From NCBI GenBank assembly GCA_019113345.1, contig DXHQ01000048.1:1-53560 (forward strand): DNA of 53,560 nucleotides, read 5' to 3'. The translations under genes and the position numbers were made by a program. Of the stretch, positions 38,323-42,641 are shown in pieces. This DNA comes from Candidatus Faecalibacterium intestinigallinarum. GTDB lineage: Bacteria > Bacillota > Clostridia > Oscillospirales > Ruminococcaceae. Below the pieces are notes generated by a model. It made no database searches, was not told the origin of the DNA, and was given only the letters and a program-made list of their open reading frames with translations. The stretch's first letter is position 1. The number at the start of each line of letters is the position of its first letter.

Positions 38323-39837
38323 TCAGCCGTTCATCATGCTGGGGGTGGAGTTCTTGAGCAGGACGTCGTGGCTGCCGCCCTCGACGATGGAGGTGGAGGA
38401 AACGACGGTCAGTTTGGCCTTCTGCTGCAGCTCGGGGATGGTCAGGGCGCCGCAGTTGCACATGGTGCTCTTGACCTTGTAGAGGGTGGTCTGGACGCCC
38501 TCGGCCAGGGGGCCGGCGTAGGGCACGTAGCTGTCCACGCCTTCCTCGAAGGAGAGCTTGGTCGCGCCGCCCAGGTCATACCGCTGCCAGTTGCGGGCGC
38601 GGTTGGAGCCCTCGCCCCAGTACTCCTTCATGTACTGGCCGTTGACCCGGACGCGGTTGGTGGGGCTCTCGTCAAAGCGGGCAAAATACCGGCCCAGCAT
38701 CACGAAATCGGCGCCCATGGCCAGAGCCAGGGTGATGTGGTAGTCGTGGACGATGCCGCCGTCCGAGCAGATGGGGATATAGATGCCGGTCTCCTTGAAG
38801 TACTCGTCGCGGGCCTTGGCCACCTCGATGACGGCGGTCGCCTGACCGCGGCCGATACCCTTGGTCTCGCGGGTGATGCAGATGGAGCCGCCGCCGATGC
38901 CGATCTTGACAAAGTCGGCCCCGGCCTTGGCCAGGAAGAGGAAGCCCTCGCGGTCGACCACGTTGCCCGCGCCCACCTTGACCTTGTCGCCGTAGTGCTC
39001 GCGGATCCAGCCCAGGGTCCGGCTCTGCCACTCCGAGAAGCCCTCGGACGAATCGATGCAGAGCACGTCCACCCCGGCGTCCACCAGGGCGGGCACCCGC
39101 TCGGCGTAGTCGCGGGTGTTGATGCCGGCGCCCACCACATAGCTCTTGCGGGCGTCCAGCAGCTCGTTGGCGTTCTCCTTGTGGGAGTTGTAGTCCTTGC
39201 GGAAGACGAAATATTTCAGATGGCCTTCCTCGTCCACCAGGGGCAGGGTGTTGATCTTGTTGTCCCAGATGATGTTGTTGCAGTCGTGCAGGGAGGTGTT
39301 CTCGGGCGCGGTGACCAGCTTGCTCATCGGGGTCATGAAGGTAGTGACCGGCGCGTCGTCGGCGGTATGGTTGACGCGGTAATCGCGGGAGGCGACGATG
39401 CCCAGCAGCTTGCCGGAGGCGGTGCCGTCGTCGGTGATGGCGATGGTGGAGTGGCCGGTGCGGGCCTTGAGCTCCAGCACGTCGTGGAGGGTGGCGTCGG
39501 GGCCGAGGTTGGAGTCGGACACCACATAGCCGGCCTTATAGGTCTTGACCCGGCGGACCATGGCAGCCTCGTCCTCGATGCTCTGGGAGCCGTAGATGAA
39601 GGAGACGCCGCCCTGACGGGCCAGCGCAATGGCCAGGTTCTCGCCCGAGACCGACTGCATGATGGCGCTGACCATCGGGATGTTCATCTCAAGGGGGCAC
39701 TTCTCCTCCCCTTTGCGGTACTTGACCAGGGGGGTCTTGAGGCTGACTGCAGCGGGCACGTTCTCCGCGGAGGAGTAGCCGGGGACCAGCAGATATTCGC
39801 CGAAGGTACGGGAGGGTTCTTCATAAAAATATGCCAT
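38323..39837 (-). CDS. guaB: IMP dehydrogenase, Tritrichomonas-type
   Basis: IMP dehydrogenase oxidises IMP to XMP, the first step of GMP synthesis. The 504-aa protein has the split TIM barrel with two CBS domains inserted at about residues 105-215. The catalytic loop is [13 protein letters not shown] with the active cysteine near 320, and the flap is [13 protein letters not shown] with the conserved Arg-Tyr near 420. These segments differ from the common bacterial GIGPGSICTTR form and match the distinctive enzyme of the protist Tritrichomonas foetus, thought to have come from bacteria. AAAAGGAG precedes the ATG. It is a single gene. Confidence 0.96.
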
Positions 39838-39928
39838 GACAATCTCCTTTTCTCATGCCAACCTTGTGAGACGCCGCGGCGCTGTGCGCTGCGCAGAGCC
39901 GGACGCAGATACAAAATACTTGGCTATA

Positions 39929-39957
39929 ATAATACCACATTTGGCGCCAGAATACAA
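39929..39957 (-). promoter_or_regulatory. guaB promoter
   Basis: On the minus strand TTGTAT (39952-39957), a 17-base spacer and TATTAT (39929-39934) lie about 90 bases before guaB. No PurR box or purine riboswitch was recognised in the leader. Confidence 0.65.
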
Positions 39958-40076
39958 AACCTTCGGGCGACAAACTTTTCCAAAATCCGCTCGCAAAAAA
40001 CAGTCACTTTGCATAGTCAACGCATGAAACCTGTGCAACTTACCTCCCCTGCCTATTCCCCCGTCCATTTTGATTC

Positions 40077-40360
40077 GTCCCGCCGGACGGCATGTACGTC
40101 CGGCGGGACACCTCCAGGGAAATTTGCCGCGGGGAGTGTGCGAGGCCGCAGGCCGAGTGCGCGGTTCCGCGGCAAATTTTGTCGGAAAGGGGATACTAGG
40201 GGACTGCGTAGCTGAGGCGCGTCCTGCGGACGAAACAGCCGAAGCGGAGCAGGGGCCGCGGTCTGCTTTTTGCAAGCGGCTTTAGCCCGCGCGGCAAAAA
40301 CAGGGCACCGCAACCAAATAAATTTCTGACGCGCGGCTGCGCGCCAGAATGGGTCCCTCT
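40077..40360. repeat. Structured dispersed repeat, copy 2 (expanded)
   Basis: This is the second copy of the element at 2223-2395. Hairpin A (GTCCCGCCGGACG, 40077-40089, with 40097-40109) and hairpin B (AAATTTGCCGCGG, 40120-40132, with 40167-40179) are perfect 13-bp stems with bases different from copy 1. The loop core (GAGTGTGCGAG, GAGTGCGCGGTT) and the following GGGGATACTAGGGG are kept. Between the left arm of C and its TTTCTG...CAGAA tip there are about 115 extra bases with their own small hairpins. The region has no plausible gene. Confidence 0.8.
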
Positions 40361-40370
40361 TTGTTGAAAA

Positions 40371-40399
40371 CAAAAAAGCCCGCCTCGAAAGACGGACTT
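40371..40399 (-). terminator. Terminator of the candidate small RNA
   Basis: On the minus strand AAGTCCGTC (40391-40399) pairs with GGCGGGCTT (40376-40384) using two G-U pairs, followed by a run of Ts. The G-U pairs would be A-C mismatches on the other strand, so the hairpin is built for minus-strand transcripts. Confidence 0.75.
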
Positions 40400-40547
40400 T
40401 TTTGCACACGAAGCGGGATATCGCCTGTGTGGCGCCGGCCTAACAGCTGAGAAGGAGAACAGCCGGAGGAGGGGCAGGCGGCGCCCGATATCCCAAAAGC
40501 AAGAAGAAAAAGATTTCACAGTCGCCGGGTTGGTTCCCTGCTGTAAC
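40371..40547 (-). ncRNA. Candidate small RNA with SD-complementary C/U-rich regions
   Basis: A transcript of about 175 bases is predicted between a strong promoter and a minus-strand terminator. Its parts in order are: a 5' hairpin (ACAG...CTGT around GGG/CCC); a U-rich linker (40494-40514); and a long hairpin pairing GGGATATCG (40486-40494) with CGATATCCC (40415-40423) and GGCGCC with GGCGCC, with a 7-base bulge. That hairpin carries the unpaired CCCCTCCTCC (40465-40474) and the loop TTCTCCTTCT (40450-40459). Both C/U stretches are complementary to Shine-Dalgarno sequences, as in C-rich Gram-positive regulators such as RsaE/RoxS. There is no open frame of note. A 6S-type RNA is a less likely alternative, since the ends do not pair. 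Confidence 0.65.
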
Positions 40548-40550
40548 TAT

Positions 40551-40579
40551 ATTGTAACTCTTTTGTCTCCAAATTGCAA
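40551..40579 (-). promoter_or_regulatory. Promoter of the candidate small RNA
   Basis: On the minus strand TTGCAA (40574-40579), a 17-base spacer and TACAAT (40551-40556) form a strong promoter 65 bases beyond the thioesterase stop, in the same direction. Confidence 0.8.
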
Positions 40580-40624
40580 TACCTTTTTGTCACTTTTTTG
40601 TAATTTCTTTTGTGAACTTTTTGT
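40561..40624 (-). repeat. Five helically phased ACAAAA motifs around the small-RNA promoter
   Basis: Read on the minus strand, ACAAAA occurs with plus-strand coordinates starting at 40619, 40608, 40596, 40585 and 40561, i.e. at steps of 11, 12, 11 and 24 bases. The missing step coincides with the -35 hexamer. Such phased A-tracts suggest bent DNA, an extended UP element or a row of regulator sites. Confidence 0.7.
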
Positions 40625-40644
40625 TGCCTCCCCCTGCCGGCCGC

Positions 40645-41382
40645 TCAGAACCGGCAGAACAGCTCGAAGGCGGCCTTGCCCTCCCGGCGGCCGGTCACAT
40701 ACCAGCCGGGCGCGCCGTCCTCGCCGGCGGCCTGGCCGTAGAACAGCTCCATCTCCTCCCCGAGGGGCACCTGCCGGTGGTACTTGATGGCGGCAAAGTG
40801 GACGGGGCCCTGGTCGATCACCTCGAGGGGCAGCGCGTCGCAGGCCACATCCAGATAGGAGGCGTTGTTGATGTGCCGGTTGGTGTCGCAGATGGAGTAG
40901 GCCGCCCGCCGGGAACCGGCGCTGACCAGCTCGGCCGCTTTCGGCACCTGCAAAGACAGCTCCCAGTCCACCGTGTCGCTCCAGTACTGGTCGATCTCCG
41001 GCGGGATGTGCCGGATGATCTTGCCGGCGCAGGTGTCCACCAGCGTCCAGCGGGTGTCCACCCGGGCCAGCTCTTCCCCGTCCAGGCTGCGCACCACCAG
41101 GACACGCTTGTTGGCCCCGCGGCGGGTCTTTTCGGGGTAGGTGGTCAGGGTGACCGTCTCCCGCATGGCGGGGGCGCGGTAGAACTGGAAGGCCTGCCGG
41201 CCCACCAGATAGACCATCTGCCGGGCGCTGTAAAACGCCTTGTCCATCCCAAGGCCCCAGGCGTGGGCGGTGGCCATGTGCTCGGCGCAGCGCAGCAGGG
41301 CCGAGGGCCGCATCAGGCCGCGGTAATCGACGTCCCCTTCGTCCAGGGTGATCTGTTCGGTATAGGTGCTGTGATCTTCCAT
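40645..41382 (-). CDS. Acyl-ACP thioesterase
   Basis: A 245-aa FatA-like acyl-ACP thioesterase (two hotdog domains) that releases fatty acids from acyl carrier protein. The first domain starts YTEQITLDEGDVDYRGLMRP, and the second shows DTNRHINNASYLDVACDAL with the Asn-His pair near residue 185. AAAAGGAG precedes the ATG at 41382; a much longer upstream frame overlaps potD and is not real. It follows potD by 26 bases, so it may be read from the pot operon. A CTGCCGG/CCGGCAG hairpin spans its stop codon. Confidence 0.9.
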   Translation of the reverse strand: MEDHSTYTEQITLDEGDVDYRGLMRPSALLRCAEHMATAHAWGLGMDKAFYSARQMVYLVGRQAFQFYRAPAMRETVTLTTYPEKTRRGANKRVLVVRSLDGEELARVDTRWTLVDTCAGKIIRHIPPEIDQYWSDTVDWELSLQVPKAAELVSAGSRRAAYSICDTNRHINNASYLDVACDALPLEVIDQGPVHFAAIKYHRQVPLGEEMELFYGQAAGEDGAPGWYVTGRREGKAAFELFCRF

Positions 41383-41408
41383 CGTGTTCTCCTTTTCGCG
41401 TTTCCGGG

Positions 41409-42641
41409 TCAATACATATTGCGCATTTTTCTGCGCATCTTGCGCCAGATGTTGAAGCAGGCCAGCAGGACCATGGCCAGCAGCAAAAGCAGGAACAGGT
41501 AGCCGCTGCCGCCCTCGTCGTAGCTCTTCATCTCGCTCCACTTGACGTCCAGCTCGCTGTTCACTTCCTCGCTCAGGGCGGTAAAGACCTGCTCTTTGGC
41601 GGCGATCTCGGCCGAAGGATAGGCGATCTCGCTGTACTTCAGCTCCTCGTCCAGCTTTTCCCAGACGGCCGTGCTCGGGGTGGTGTAGCCGATGTACTCG
41701 GCGTTGGCCACCCCCACGTCCACCTCGCACATGAAGTTGATGAACATCTCGGCGGCCTCCTGGTTCTGGCTTGCCGCCGGGATGCACATGCAGTCCACCG
41801 ACAGCACGCTCCCCTCTTCGGGGAAGACCCAGGCCAGGTCGGGGTTGTCGTCGATCATGGTGATGGCGTCGCCCGAATAGTAGACGCCCACCGCCGCCTC
41901 GCCGCCGATCATCTTGTCAAAGATCTCGTCCATGACGTAGGCCTGGACCAGAGGCTTCTGGGCCTTGAGCTGCTCCATCACCTCGTCCACCTCGTCGGTG
42001 GTGGGCGGATTGACGCTCCTGCCCTCCTTGAAGGCCGCGATGGCGTAGGCGTCCCGGCTGTTGTTGAACATCAGGATGCTGCCGGCGTACTGCTCGTCCC
42101 ACAGGTCGGCCCAGGCGGTGGGGGCCTCGGACACCATGGTGGTGTTGTAGATGATGCCGGTGGTGCAGAGCATATAGGGCACGGTGTAAGCGTTGGCGGG
42201 GTCGTAGTCGGGATTGCGGTATTCCTCGTCGATAAGGGCGAAGTTCGGGATATTCTCGTAGTTGAGGGGCAGCAGCATCTCCTCGTCGATCATCTTGGCC
42301 ACCATATAGTCGGAGGGGATGATGACGTCGTAGCTGGCCGCGCCCGACTTGAGCTTGGCGTACATCGACTCGTTGGAGTCGAAGGTGGTGTAGTTCACAT
42401 GGATGCCGGTCAGCTCCTCAAAGGCGGCCACCACATCCACGCTGTCATCCGACCCGTTGGAGATATACTCGCCCCAGTTGTAGACGTTCAGGGTCACATT
42501 CTGGCCGGCAAAGCGGGTCCAGTCATAGTCTGCCGAGACGGTGATGCCGTCCACTACCGCAATGGGTTCGGCCGCCGGGGCCGGCAGGGCGCAGAAAGTC
42601 AGCGCCGCCAGAGCGGAAAGGGTCGCAAGCAAACGCTTCAT
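41409..42641 (-). CDS. potD: Polyamine ABC transporter substrate-binding protein with C-terminal anchor
   Basis: A 410-aa extracellular binding protein for spermidine/putrescine. A signal peptide covers about residues 1-23 (MKRLLATLSALAALTFCALP) and lacks a lipobox. The PotD fold starts at NVTLNVYNWGEYISNG near 48. Unusually, the C-terminus has a hydrophobic helix at about 381-399 followed by a very basic tail (RRKMRN), so it looks anchored by a C-terminal transmembrane segment instead of a lipid. The gene starts inside the potC stop (ATGA). Confidence 0.92.
   Translation of the reverse strand: MKRLLATLSALAALTFCALPAPAAEPIAVVDGITVSADYDWTRFAGQNVTLNVYNWGEYISNGSDDSVDVVAAFEELTGIHVNYTTFDSNESMYAKLKSGAASYDVIIPSDYMVAKMIDEEMLLPLNYENIPNFALIDEEYRNPDYDPANAYTVPYMLCTTGIIYNTTMVSEAPTAWADLWDEQYAGSILMFNNSRDAYAIAAFKEGRSVNPPTTDEVDEVMEQLKAQKPLVQAYVMDEIFDKMIGGEAAVGVYYSGDAITMIDDNPDLAWVFPEEGSVLSVDCMCIPAASQNQEAAEMFINFMCEVDVGVANAEYIGYTTPSTAVWEKLDEELKYSEIAYPSAEIAAKEQVFTALSEEVNSELDVKWSEMKSYDEGGSGYLFLLLLLAMVLLACFNIWRKMRRKMRNMY

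Follow-up and report, generated by a model that had tools for sequence, protein, structure and literature searches.

A catalogued RF02994 RNA near guaB in Faecalibacterium, its sister-genus forms and a possible role in translation control

Background

What lies in the gap between guaB, which encodes IMP dehydrogenase, and an acyl-ACP thioesterase gene in Candidatus Faecalibacterium intestinigallinarum, and what might it do in the cell? Here we analyze a 53,560-nucleotide stretch of this genome (the window). An earlier note, made from the sequence alone, had placed in this gap a minus-strand unit with its own promoter, a multi-stem fold, a strand-specific terminator and two C/U-rich segments complementary to Shine-Dalgarno (SD) sequences, and had taken it for a probable new small regulatory RNA. 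Faecalibacterium and related genera are abundant in the human gut, and if the boldest of the readings set out below is true, many exported solute-binding proteins would be lowered in them at once.

Results and discussion

Family identity and distribution

The RNA is a member of a catalogued family. In an Rfam covariance-model search it matched RF02994 (IMPDH RNA) over its full length and scored 117.8 bits, where the gathering threshold is 95.4 (Table 1). The earlier note had asked for this search and had named a match to a known family as grounds for giving up the claim of a new RNA, a claim that is therefore withdrawn. RF02994, which Rfam types as “Gene; sRNA”, reportedly goes back to Weinberg et al. 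2017; no description of its function was found in the literature searched. Its model has 108 positions and leaves out the 5' box, as well as the greater part of the terminator hairpin, of the RNA described here. No other Rfam family reached its gathering score at this locus, which excludes 6S RNA and RsaE/RoxS, and the rest of the window yielded two tRNAs only.

The window's genome carries one copy. Matches were found in 30 of 61 genomes, all 30 of them among the 31 genomes of Faecalibacterium; the one genus genome with no match is a 77%-complete assembly, and all 22 genus genomes with at least 90% completeness and at most 5% contamination have the RNA. In 197 genomes of the bacterial family the RF02994 model matched four, three from this genus and one from another (G104, 27.7 bits), which we dropped: by eye it resembles coding DNA, and none of four neighborhood proteins matched.

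Table 1. Positions of the RNA, its parts and its neighbors in the window
Feature	Position	Strand	Basis or conservation
-35 hexamer TTGCAA	40574..40579	-	TTG-type -35 in 30/30 own-genus copies
-10 hexamer TACAAT	40551..40556	-	kept in 30/30 own-genus copies
GTTACA-N5-GTTACA, 11-bp direct repeat spanning -10 and inferred start	40542..40558	-
Upstream TTACA-N6-TGACA	40588..40603	-	second such repeat but for one mismatch
Inferred transcript, about 173 nt	40371..40543	-	promoter and terminator positions; start inferred
5' single-stranded box TCTTTTTCTTCTTG, third conserved pyrimidine segment	40500..40513	-	TTTTTC in 30/30 own-genus copies
Rfam RF02994 IMPDH RNA match	40391..40499	-	model positions 1-108 of 108
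Stem P1, 5' arm GGGATATCG	40486..40494	-	fold and covariation
Stem P1, 3' arm CGATATCCC	40415..40423	-	fold and covariation
Anti-SD segment CCCCTCCTCC	40465..40474	-	UCCUCC in 29/30 own-genus copies
Loop TTCTCCTTCT of hairpin P3, the second segment complementary to SD	40450..40459	-	TCTCCTTC in 28/30 own-genus copies
One-sided 7-nt bulge ACACAGG, P2/P1 junction	40424..40430	-
Pre-terminator box GCTTCGTGTGCA	40403..40414	-	CTTCGTGT in 28/30 own-genus copies
Terminator hairpin, 15 pairs	40371..40404	-	fold and covariation
guaB (IMP dehydrogenase), downstream neighbor	38323..39837	-	Pfam IMPDH domain
Acyl-ACP thioesterase, upstream neighbor	40645..41382	-	Pfam thioesterase domains; start 41382 judged by eye
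potD-like solute-binding protein gene, candidate target	41409..42641	-	Pfam SBP_bac_8

A covarying fold with near-constant unpaired segments

The multi-stem fold proposed for the minus strand is borne out: positions 40371-40579 fold with a z-score of -4.1 on that strand, as good as in none of 200 shuffles, versus -0.25 on the plus strand. The parts follow one another as a 5' single-stranded UCUUUUUCUUCUUG, stems P1 and P2, the unpaired UCCUCC segment, P3 with its UCUCCUUC loop, the ACACAGG bulge, CUUCGUGUGCA and the terminator hairpin. In an alignment of 29 own-genus copies (A1; 28 distinct), which omits L030 because its stems differ, standard pairs fill 99.2% of cells, against 44.5-49.3% with slid partners; both sides have changed at 22 of 34 pairs, and the covariation score was reached by none of 500 shuffles. 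The stems thus vary and covary, and the single-stranded segments stay near-constant (UUUUUC in 30/30 own-genus copies, UCCUCC in 29/30, UCUCCUUC in 28/30 and CUUCGUGU in 28/30).

In the minimum-energy fold of the window's RNA the TTCTCCTTCT loop is unpaired, as are five of the six bases of UCCUCC. Among the corresponding own-genus folds at least five of these six bases are unpaired in 24/30, the loop motif is open in all 28 copies that carry it, and at least 12 of the 14 bases of the 5' box are unpaired in 21/30. The two C/U-rich segments, CCCCTCCTCC at 40474-40465 and TTCTCCTTCT at 40459-40450, had been placed correctly and hold as conserved, unpaired complements of ribosome-binding sites, with the conservation in relatives that the earlier note had proposed to check. 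It had not described the RF02994 match, the TCTTTTTCTTCTTG segment, the conserved CTTCGTGTGCA pre-terminator box or the 11-bp-spaced GTTACA repeats over the -10 hexamer.

A few copies deviate. An alternative pairing replaces P1 in the folds of L003 and L017, and in L017 the 5' pyrimidine box is also duplicated in tandem (1478-1500). The most diverged copy, L030, has a different outer helix and no CACAGGC, and retains CUCCUUUCC, the UCUCCUUC loop and CUUCGUGUGCA. A pseudoknot joining the CACAG bulge to CUUCGUGUG, considered by eye only, is unsupported, L030 having CUUCGUGUG without CACAGGC.

Promoter, terminator and putative control

The promoter TTGCAA-17-TACAAT (40579-40551) is the sole promoter-like site within 39500-41500, weak when taken alone because 0.5 such sites are expected there by chance; the conservation of TACAAT and of a TTG-type -35 in 30/30 own-genus copies (Table 1) supports it. 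The terminator had been held to work on the minus strand only. In the window its stem is indeed unbroken on that strand and mismatch-broken on the other, but the hairpin does not fix the strand in general, because in some relatives, such as L004, it is fully Watson-Crick. A simple terminator scan missed this hairpin because its T run sits inside the stem, and reported instead a second terminator-like hairpin of 11 pairs just 3' of the RNA (40349-40324, minus strand). These observations support a structured RNA unit that, as far as its sequence tells, has its own conserved promoter and terminator hairpin.

PhoP-like and WalR-like regulators would read similar repeats, and such a repeat overlies the -10 hexamer. 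On the reverse strand the GTTACA repeat reads TGTWAH-N5-TGTWAH, the WalR consensus (PMC4168254); that paper associates WalR sites over the promoter and +1 with repression. Exact TGTWAH-N5-TGTWAH occurs in all 30 own-genus promoter regions (one in 7, two in 23), which are related by descent and so are not 30 independent events, and at least once in 15 of 36 sister-genus promoter regions; the background is none in 360 kb of stretches from G012 and two in 400 kb from G272. The upstream TTACA pair is present in 24/30 own-genus copies, and three GTTRCA-type units at 11-bp steps in 24/36 sister promoters. The RNA is probably transcribed under the control of a response regulator of the OmpR family that resembles WalR or PhoP.

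TTACA-N6-TTACA has three sites in the whole own genome, versus none for the reversed control: the RNA promoter, a site 5' of a gene for a BMP-type lipoprotein, which has cdd and deoD next to it, and one near an ftsK-like gene (L032 1501-1516 and L033 1501-1516; cdd and deoD named by eye).

RNAs of the same layout in sister genera

Gemmiger, Ruthenibacterium, Fournierella and Subdoligranulum have RNAs built on this plan, which share with those of Faecalibacterium the promoter with 11-bp GTTRCA repeats, a U-rich 5' box, UCCUCC and a terminator. A covariance model built from 29 own-genus copies (R1) recovers the held-out L030 at 69 bits. Of 29 sister-genus guaB loci, seven have weaker matches 5' of guaB (22-47 bits, E <=0.0061), in which the parts follow one another as in the own genus. 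R1 also has matches in nine genomes outside the genus; among the matches listed only that in G101 (L072) is convincing, and the others are not counted because it was mainly the terminator hairpin that matched. Some of the genomes with uncounted matches carry the RNA at another place.

The common promoter pattern, GTTACAATWTRGTTRCA, was found at 59 places in 51 of 396 genomes of the bacterial family, against three for the reversed pattern (a hand count). Of 30 such loci that were read, 22 have an RNA of this layout (4 in the own genus, 18 in others) and eight do not (L091, L094, L095, L100, L105, L107, L108 and L109); the latter could be further promoters under this regulator, or match by chance. 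A scan of 84,980 species' genomes for the promoter pattern with CTTTTTC and TCCTCC, which also excludes gaps of less than 9 nt between CAT and UCCUCC, gave 42 stretches, all from Faecalibacterium, its sister genera, or organisms labeled Oscillospiraceae or Clostridia bacterium. Classed by the form of the RNA, 18 are own-genus and 24 sister, three of the latter (L243, L264 and L266) being labeled Faecalibacterium. The RF02994 model reached gathering at none of the 18 sister loci tested of these 24, and R1 matched 11/24 at the position of the RNA with E <0.01.

The whole sister set comprises 39 loci (36 unique), eight of them first found through the neighborhood of guaB, seven of these eight also by R1. 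Counts of GTTACAAT, TTTTTC and UCCUCC in this set are not independent evidence, because the collecting patterns and filters largely demanded them. A terminator finder located none in 5/36 sister RNAs; some ends are too short, among them those of L266, L269 and L278. The folds of L039, L247 and L266 follow the same plan of P1, 7-nt bulge, P2, anti-SD segment and P3, and the shortest forms (L093, L102, L103 and L106) consist of single-stranded boxes and a terminator. The sister 5' box reads UUUUUCAU in 36/36, partly through selection. The boxes drift between the two groups, since the TCTCCTTC/UCUCCUUC loop is absent from 36/36 sister RNAs and the CAU box is missing in 29/30 own-genus copies. About 5 kb from the RNA, a Ruthenibacterium assembly from a metagenome has a glmS ribozyme (L263 1227-1437).

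Complementarity to translation start sites and a proposed mode of action

Half of the unique sister RNAs (18/36) have a 5' segment that is reverse-complementary to an entire ribosome-binding site and start codon at natural spacing, CTCC standing 4-12 nt from CAT, an arrangement seen in 9% of shuffles; near-identical sequence in 13 of the 18 means that there were fewer independent events. GGAG-ATG distances peak at 8-9 nt in two sampled genomes. The reverse complements of the sister box and anti-SD segment read AAAGGAGGAGAAGAACACAUGAAAAA (L241 and others), AAAAGGAGGAAAAGAAUGAAAAAA (L093) and UAAGGAGAAAUUAUGAAAAAA (L042 and L090, through a CUCCUU adjoining the 5' box rather than the main UCCUCC). 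In the remaining half, stem arms lie between the 5' box and the anti-SD box. Judged by its letters, the sister layout is the one to be expected of an RNA that covers SD sequence and start codon at once.

Relative to shuffled boxes, the anti-SD box favors start regions over the interior of coding sequences (z -2.8 for 203 ATG genes in stretches of G012; z -3.0 for 214 in stretches of G272). The loop box and the sister CAU box gave z -1.8 and z -1.6, and order-specific preference was absent for the own-genus 5' box (z 0.1) and the pre-terminator box (z -0.5). Any complement of an SD sequence would show such a preference, which does not single out a target.

With moderate confidence, we favor the reading that the RNA is a free-standing RF02994 small RNA acting in trans, in which anti-SD pairing blocks ribosomes and which is under WalR- or PhoP-like control. 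From the promoter and terminator we infer its expression as an independent transcript. Its unpaired UCCUCC, joined in Faecalibacterium by the UCUCCUUC loop, would pair in the cell with the SD region of mRNAs and exclude the ribosome, repressing translation. In sister genera the UUUUUCAU box may extend this pairing over the start codon and following lysine codons (AUGAAAAA), which would favor mRNAs of exported and transport proteins as the target class. An OmpR-family response regulator, WalR- or PhoP-like, would act through the GTTRCA repeats that overlie the -10 hexamer at 11-bp spacing. A bolder extension, which we put forward only tentatively, makes RF02994 the elaborate end of a wider, clade-specific class whose simplest form, UUUUUCAU-N-UCCUCCUUUC plus a terminator, would be antisense to a generic translation start (GAAAGGAGG-N-AUGAAAAA), with response-regulator control lowering exported solute-binding proteins.

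Instead of pairing with mRNA, the pyrimidine segments could recruit an RNA-binding protein, or the RNA could serve as a protein scaffold. Near-invariant unpaired segments that lack SD complementarity, CUUCGUGUGCA and the 7-nt bulge among them, speak for this, but UCCUCC is common to the own genus and its sisters and, in half of the sister RNAs, is as far from CAU as an SD sequence is from its start codon, and we regard a protein-binding role as rather unlikely.

RsaE/RoxS of Bacillales aims C-rich unpaired motifs at SD sequences. The comparison with RsaE/RoxS made in the earlier note holds for mode of action alone and not for family membership, given the lack of a match at gathering. GcvB targets transport solute-binding proteins, a presumed target class that the RNA described here would have in common with GcvB and AbcR; neither the GcvB nor the AbcR family matched this locus at gathering. 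NfeR1 silences mRNAs at the ribosome-binding site through anti-SD motifs, its predicted targets being mostly ABC transport systems, and the alpha-r14 small RNAs are described as having three hairpins, each with CCUCCUCCC (PMC10746234). The likeness of the RNA here to NfeR1 and alpha-r14, which are from Alphaproteobacteria, lies in the unpaired CCUCCUCC-type anti-SD motifs of both, whereas it has one such segment plus the UCUCCUUC loop, and a different fold. It scores 17.2 bits against 58.8 for alpha-r14 (RF02344) and lacks the plan of three hairpins with CCUCCUCCC, which places it outside that family. By analogy, NfeR1 is the closest system in presumed mode of working, a closer functional analogue than RsaE/RoxS.

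If the bolder extension is true, the RNA class would be the Gram-positive equivalent of NfeR1, AbcR or GcvB and would exploit the signature that exported proteins carry at their start codons. The promoter, the sister forms and the complementarity to SD sequence and start codon allow control of translation, perhaps that of nutrient-uptake genes, to be put forward as a hypothesis that can be tested, and they speak against the link to guaB implied by the family name. Since the family itself is already catalogued as RF02994, what remains of interest is the sister-genus forms and the layout antisense to start sites, of which no description was found in the literature searched.

Relation to guaB

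That name suggests a cis-acting guaB leader, an attenuator or riboswitch whose hairpin terminates transcription unless a signal opens it, and guaB does lie downstream on the same strand in 28/30 own-genus loci and in 34 of the 42 stretches. In the other eight stretches, however, guaB is on the opposite strand in three and outside the stretch in five, one of which covers only 1.1 kb downstream. In two Faecalibacterium genomes (G023 and G019), 20-kb stretches carry the RNA beside potD and the thioesterase gene, with other genes downstream and no guaB, so that the RNA and guaB need not stay together. Some sister genomes have guaB at a distance of about 1.6-1.9 kb, and Rfam types the family as an sRNA gene. 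With the linkage broken in several genomes we reject a simple guaB leader, and consider cis-acting control of guaB in general improbable.

The guaB matches of the bacterial family fall into two classes, with about 70-86% and about 35-40% identity to the window's gene, and the RNA is found only beside the first. A dispersed repeat at 40077-40202, between the RNA and guaB, recurs at 2223-2348 of the window (about 79% identity over 113-131 bases) and on another contig next to a lipoprotein gene (L032 3-114); it may be the reason for the long gap between RNA and guaB here.

Candidate targets

For the trans-acting RNA that we favor, candidate targets can be sought among translation starts. The pattern GGAGGA-N1-10-ATGAAAAA occurs 479 times in 29 sister genomes, versus 15 times reversed (hand counts). 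We examined 27 genes with such starts, drawn from the automatically chosen loci L281-L310 (28/30 usable, less one that was the RNA itself): by Pfam, 12 encode solute-binding proteins and four other transport proteins, and by a crude rule 23/27 encode lipoproteins or exported or membrane proteins, versus 45/203 and 43/214 in samples. This transport bias is a property of such starts, because spacer letters matching one sister RNA exactly are not enriched (7/134 versus 8.4 expected, a hand count over G204, G437, G406 and G108).

Specificity for solute-binding proteins through ACACATGAAAAA was considered and rejected. This sequence has 53 matches versus five reversed (hand counts), and eight of nine frames longer than 200 aa among 30 such loci have lipoprotein-like beginnings; this reflects the base rate, the spacer being unenriched and five of seven SD-led starts with other spacers also belonging to lipoproteins. 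Targets of the own-genus 5' box were likewise rejected: its complement shows no enrichment in eight genus genomes (75 versus 79 reversed, hand counts) and falls at an SD-led start in only 2/30 loci.

The opposite of a broad regulator would be an RNA dedicated to a single conserved target such as the adjoining potD. Of the four start regions compared in the window, that of potD gives the best pairing with each of the three boxes and that of guaB pairs weakly; across 14 loci, pairing energies of the anti-SD box are -10.8 to -28.7 kcal/mol with potD and -7.3 to -14.1 with guaB (the thioesterase start region being excluded from these comparisons). Compared with shuffled start regions, however, potD mostly does not stand out (z -0.1 to -3.8; -0.7 in the window), so that purine-rich composition may explain them, and potD was not found near the RNA in many sister loci; a single-target RNA is a little less probable still than a guaB leader. 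A small gene on the opposite strand, where the sister-genus reverse complement resembles a translation start (SD...ATGAAAAA), is very improbable, its frames having 3 to 21 codons that differ in sequence between species and its start codon being absent in 29/30 own-genus copies.

Returning to trans-acting pairing at translation starts, G396 offers an example of it, not a proof: there the RNA and the mRNA of a LivK-like protein (identified by eye) are predicted to pair over both boxes at -29.6 kcal/mol.
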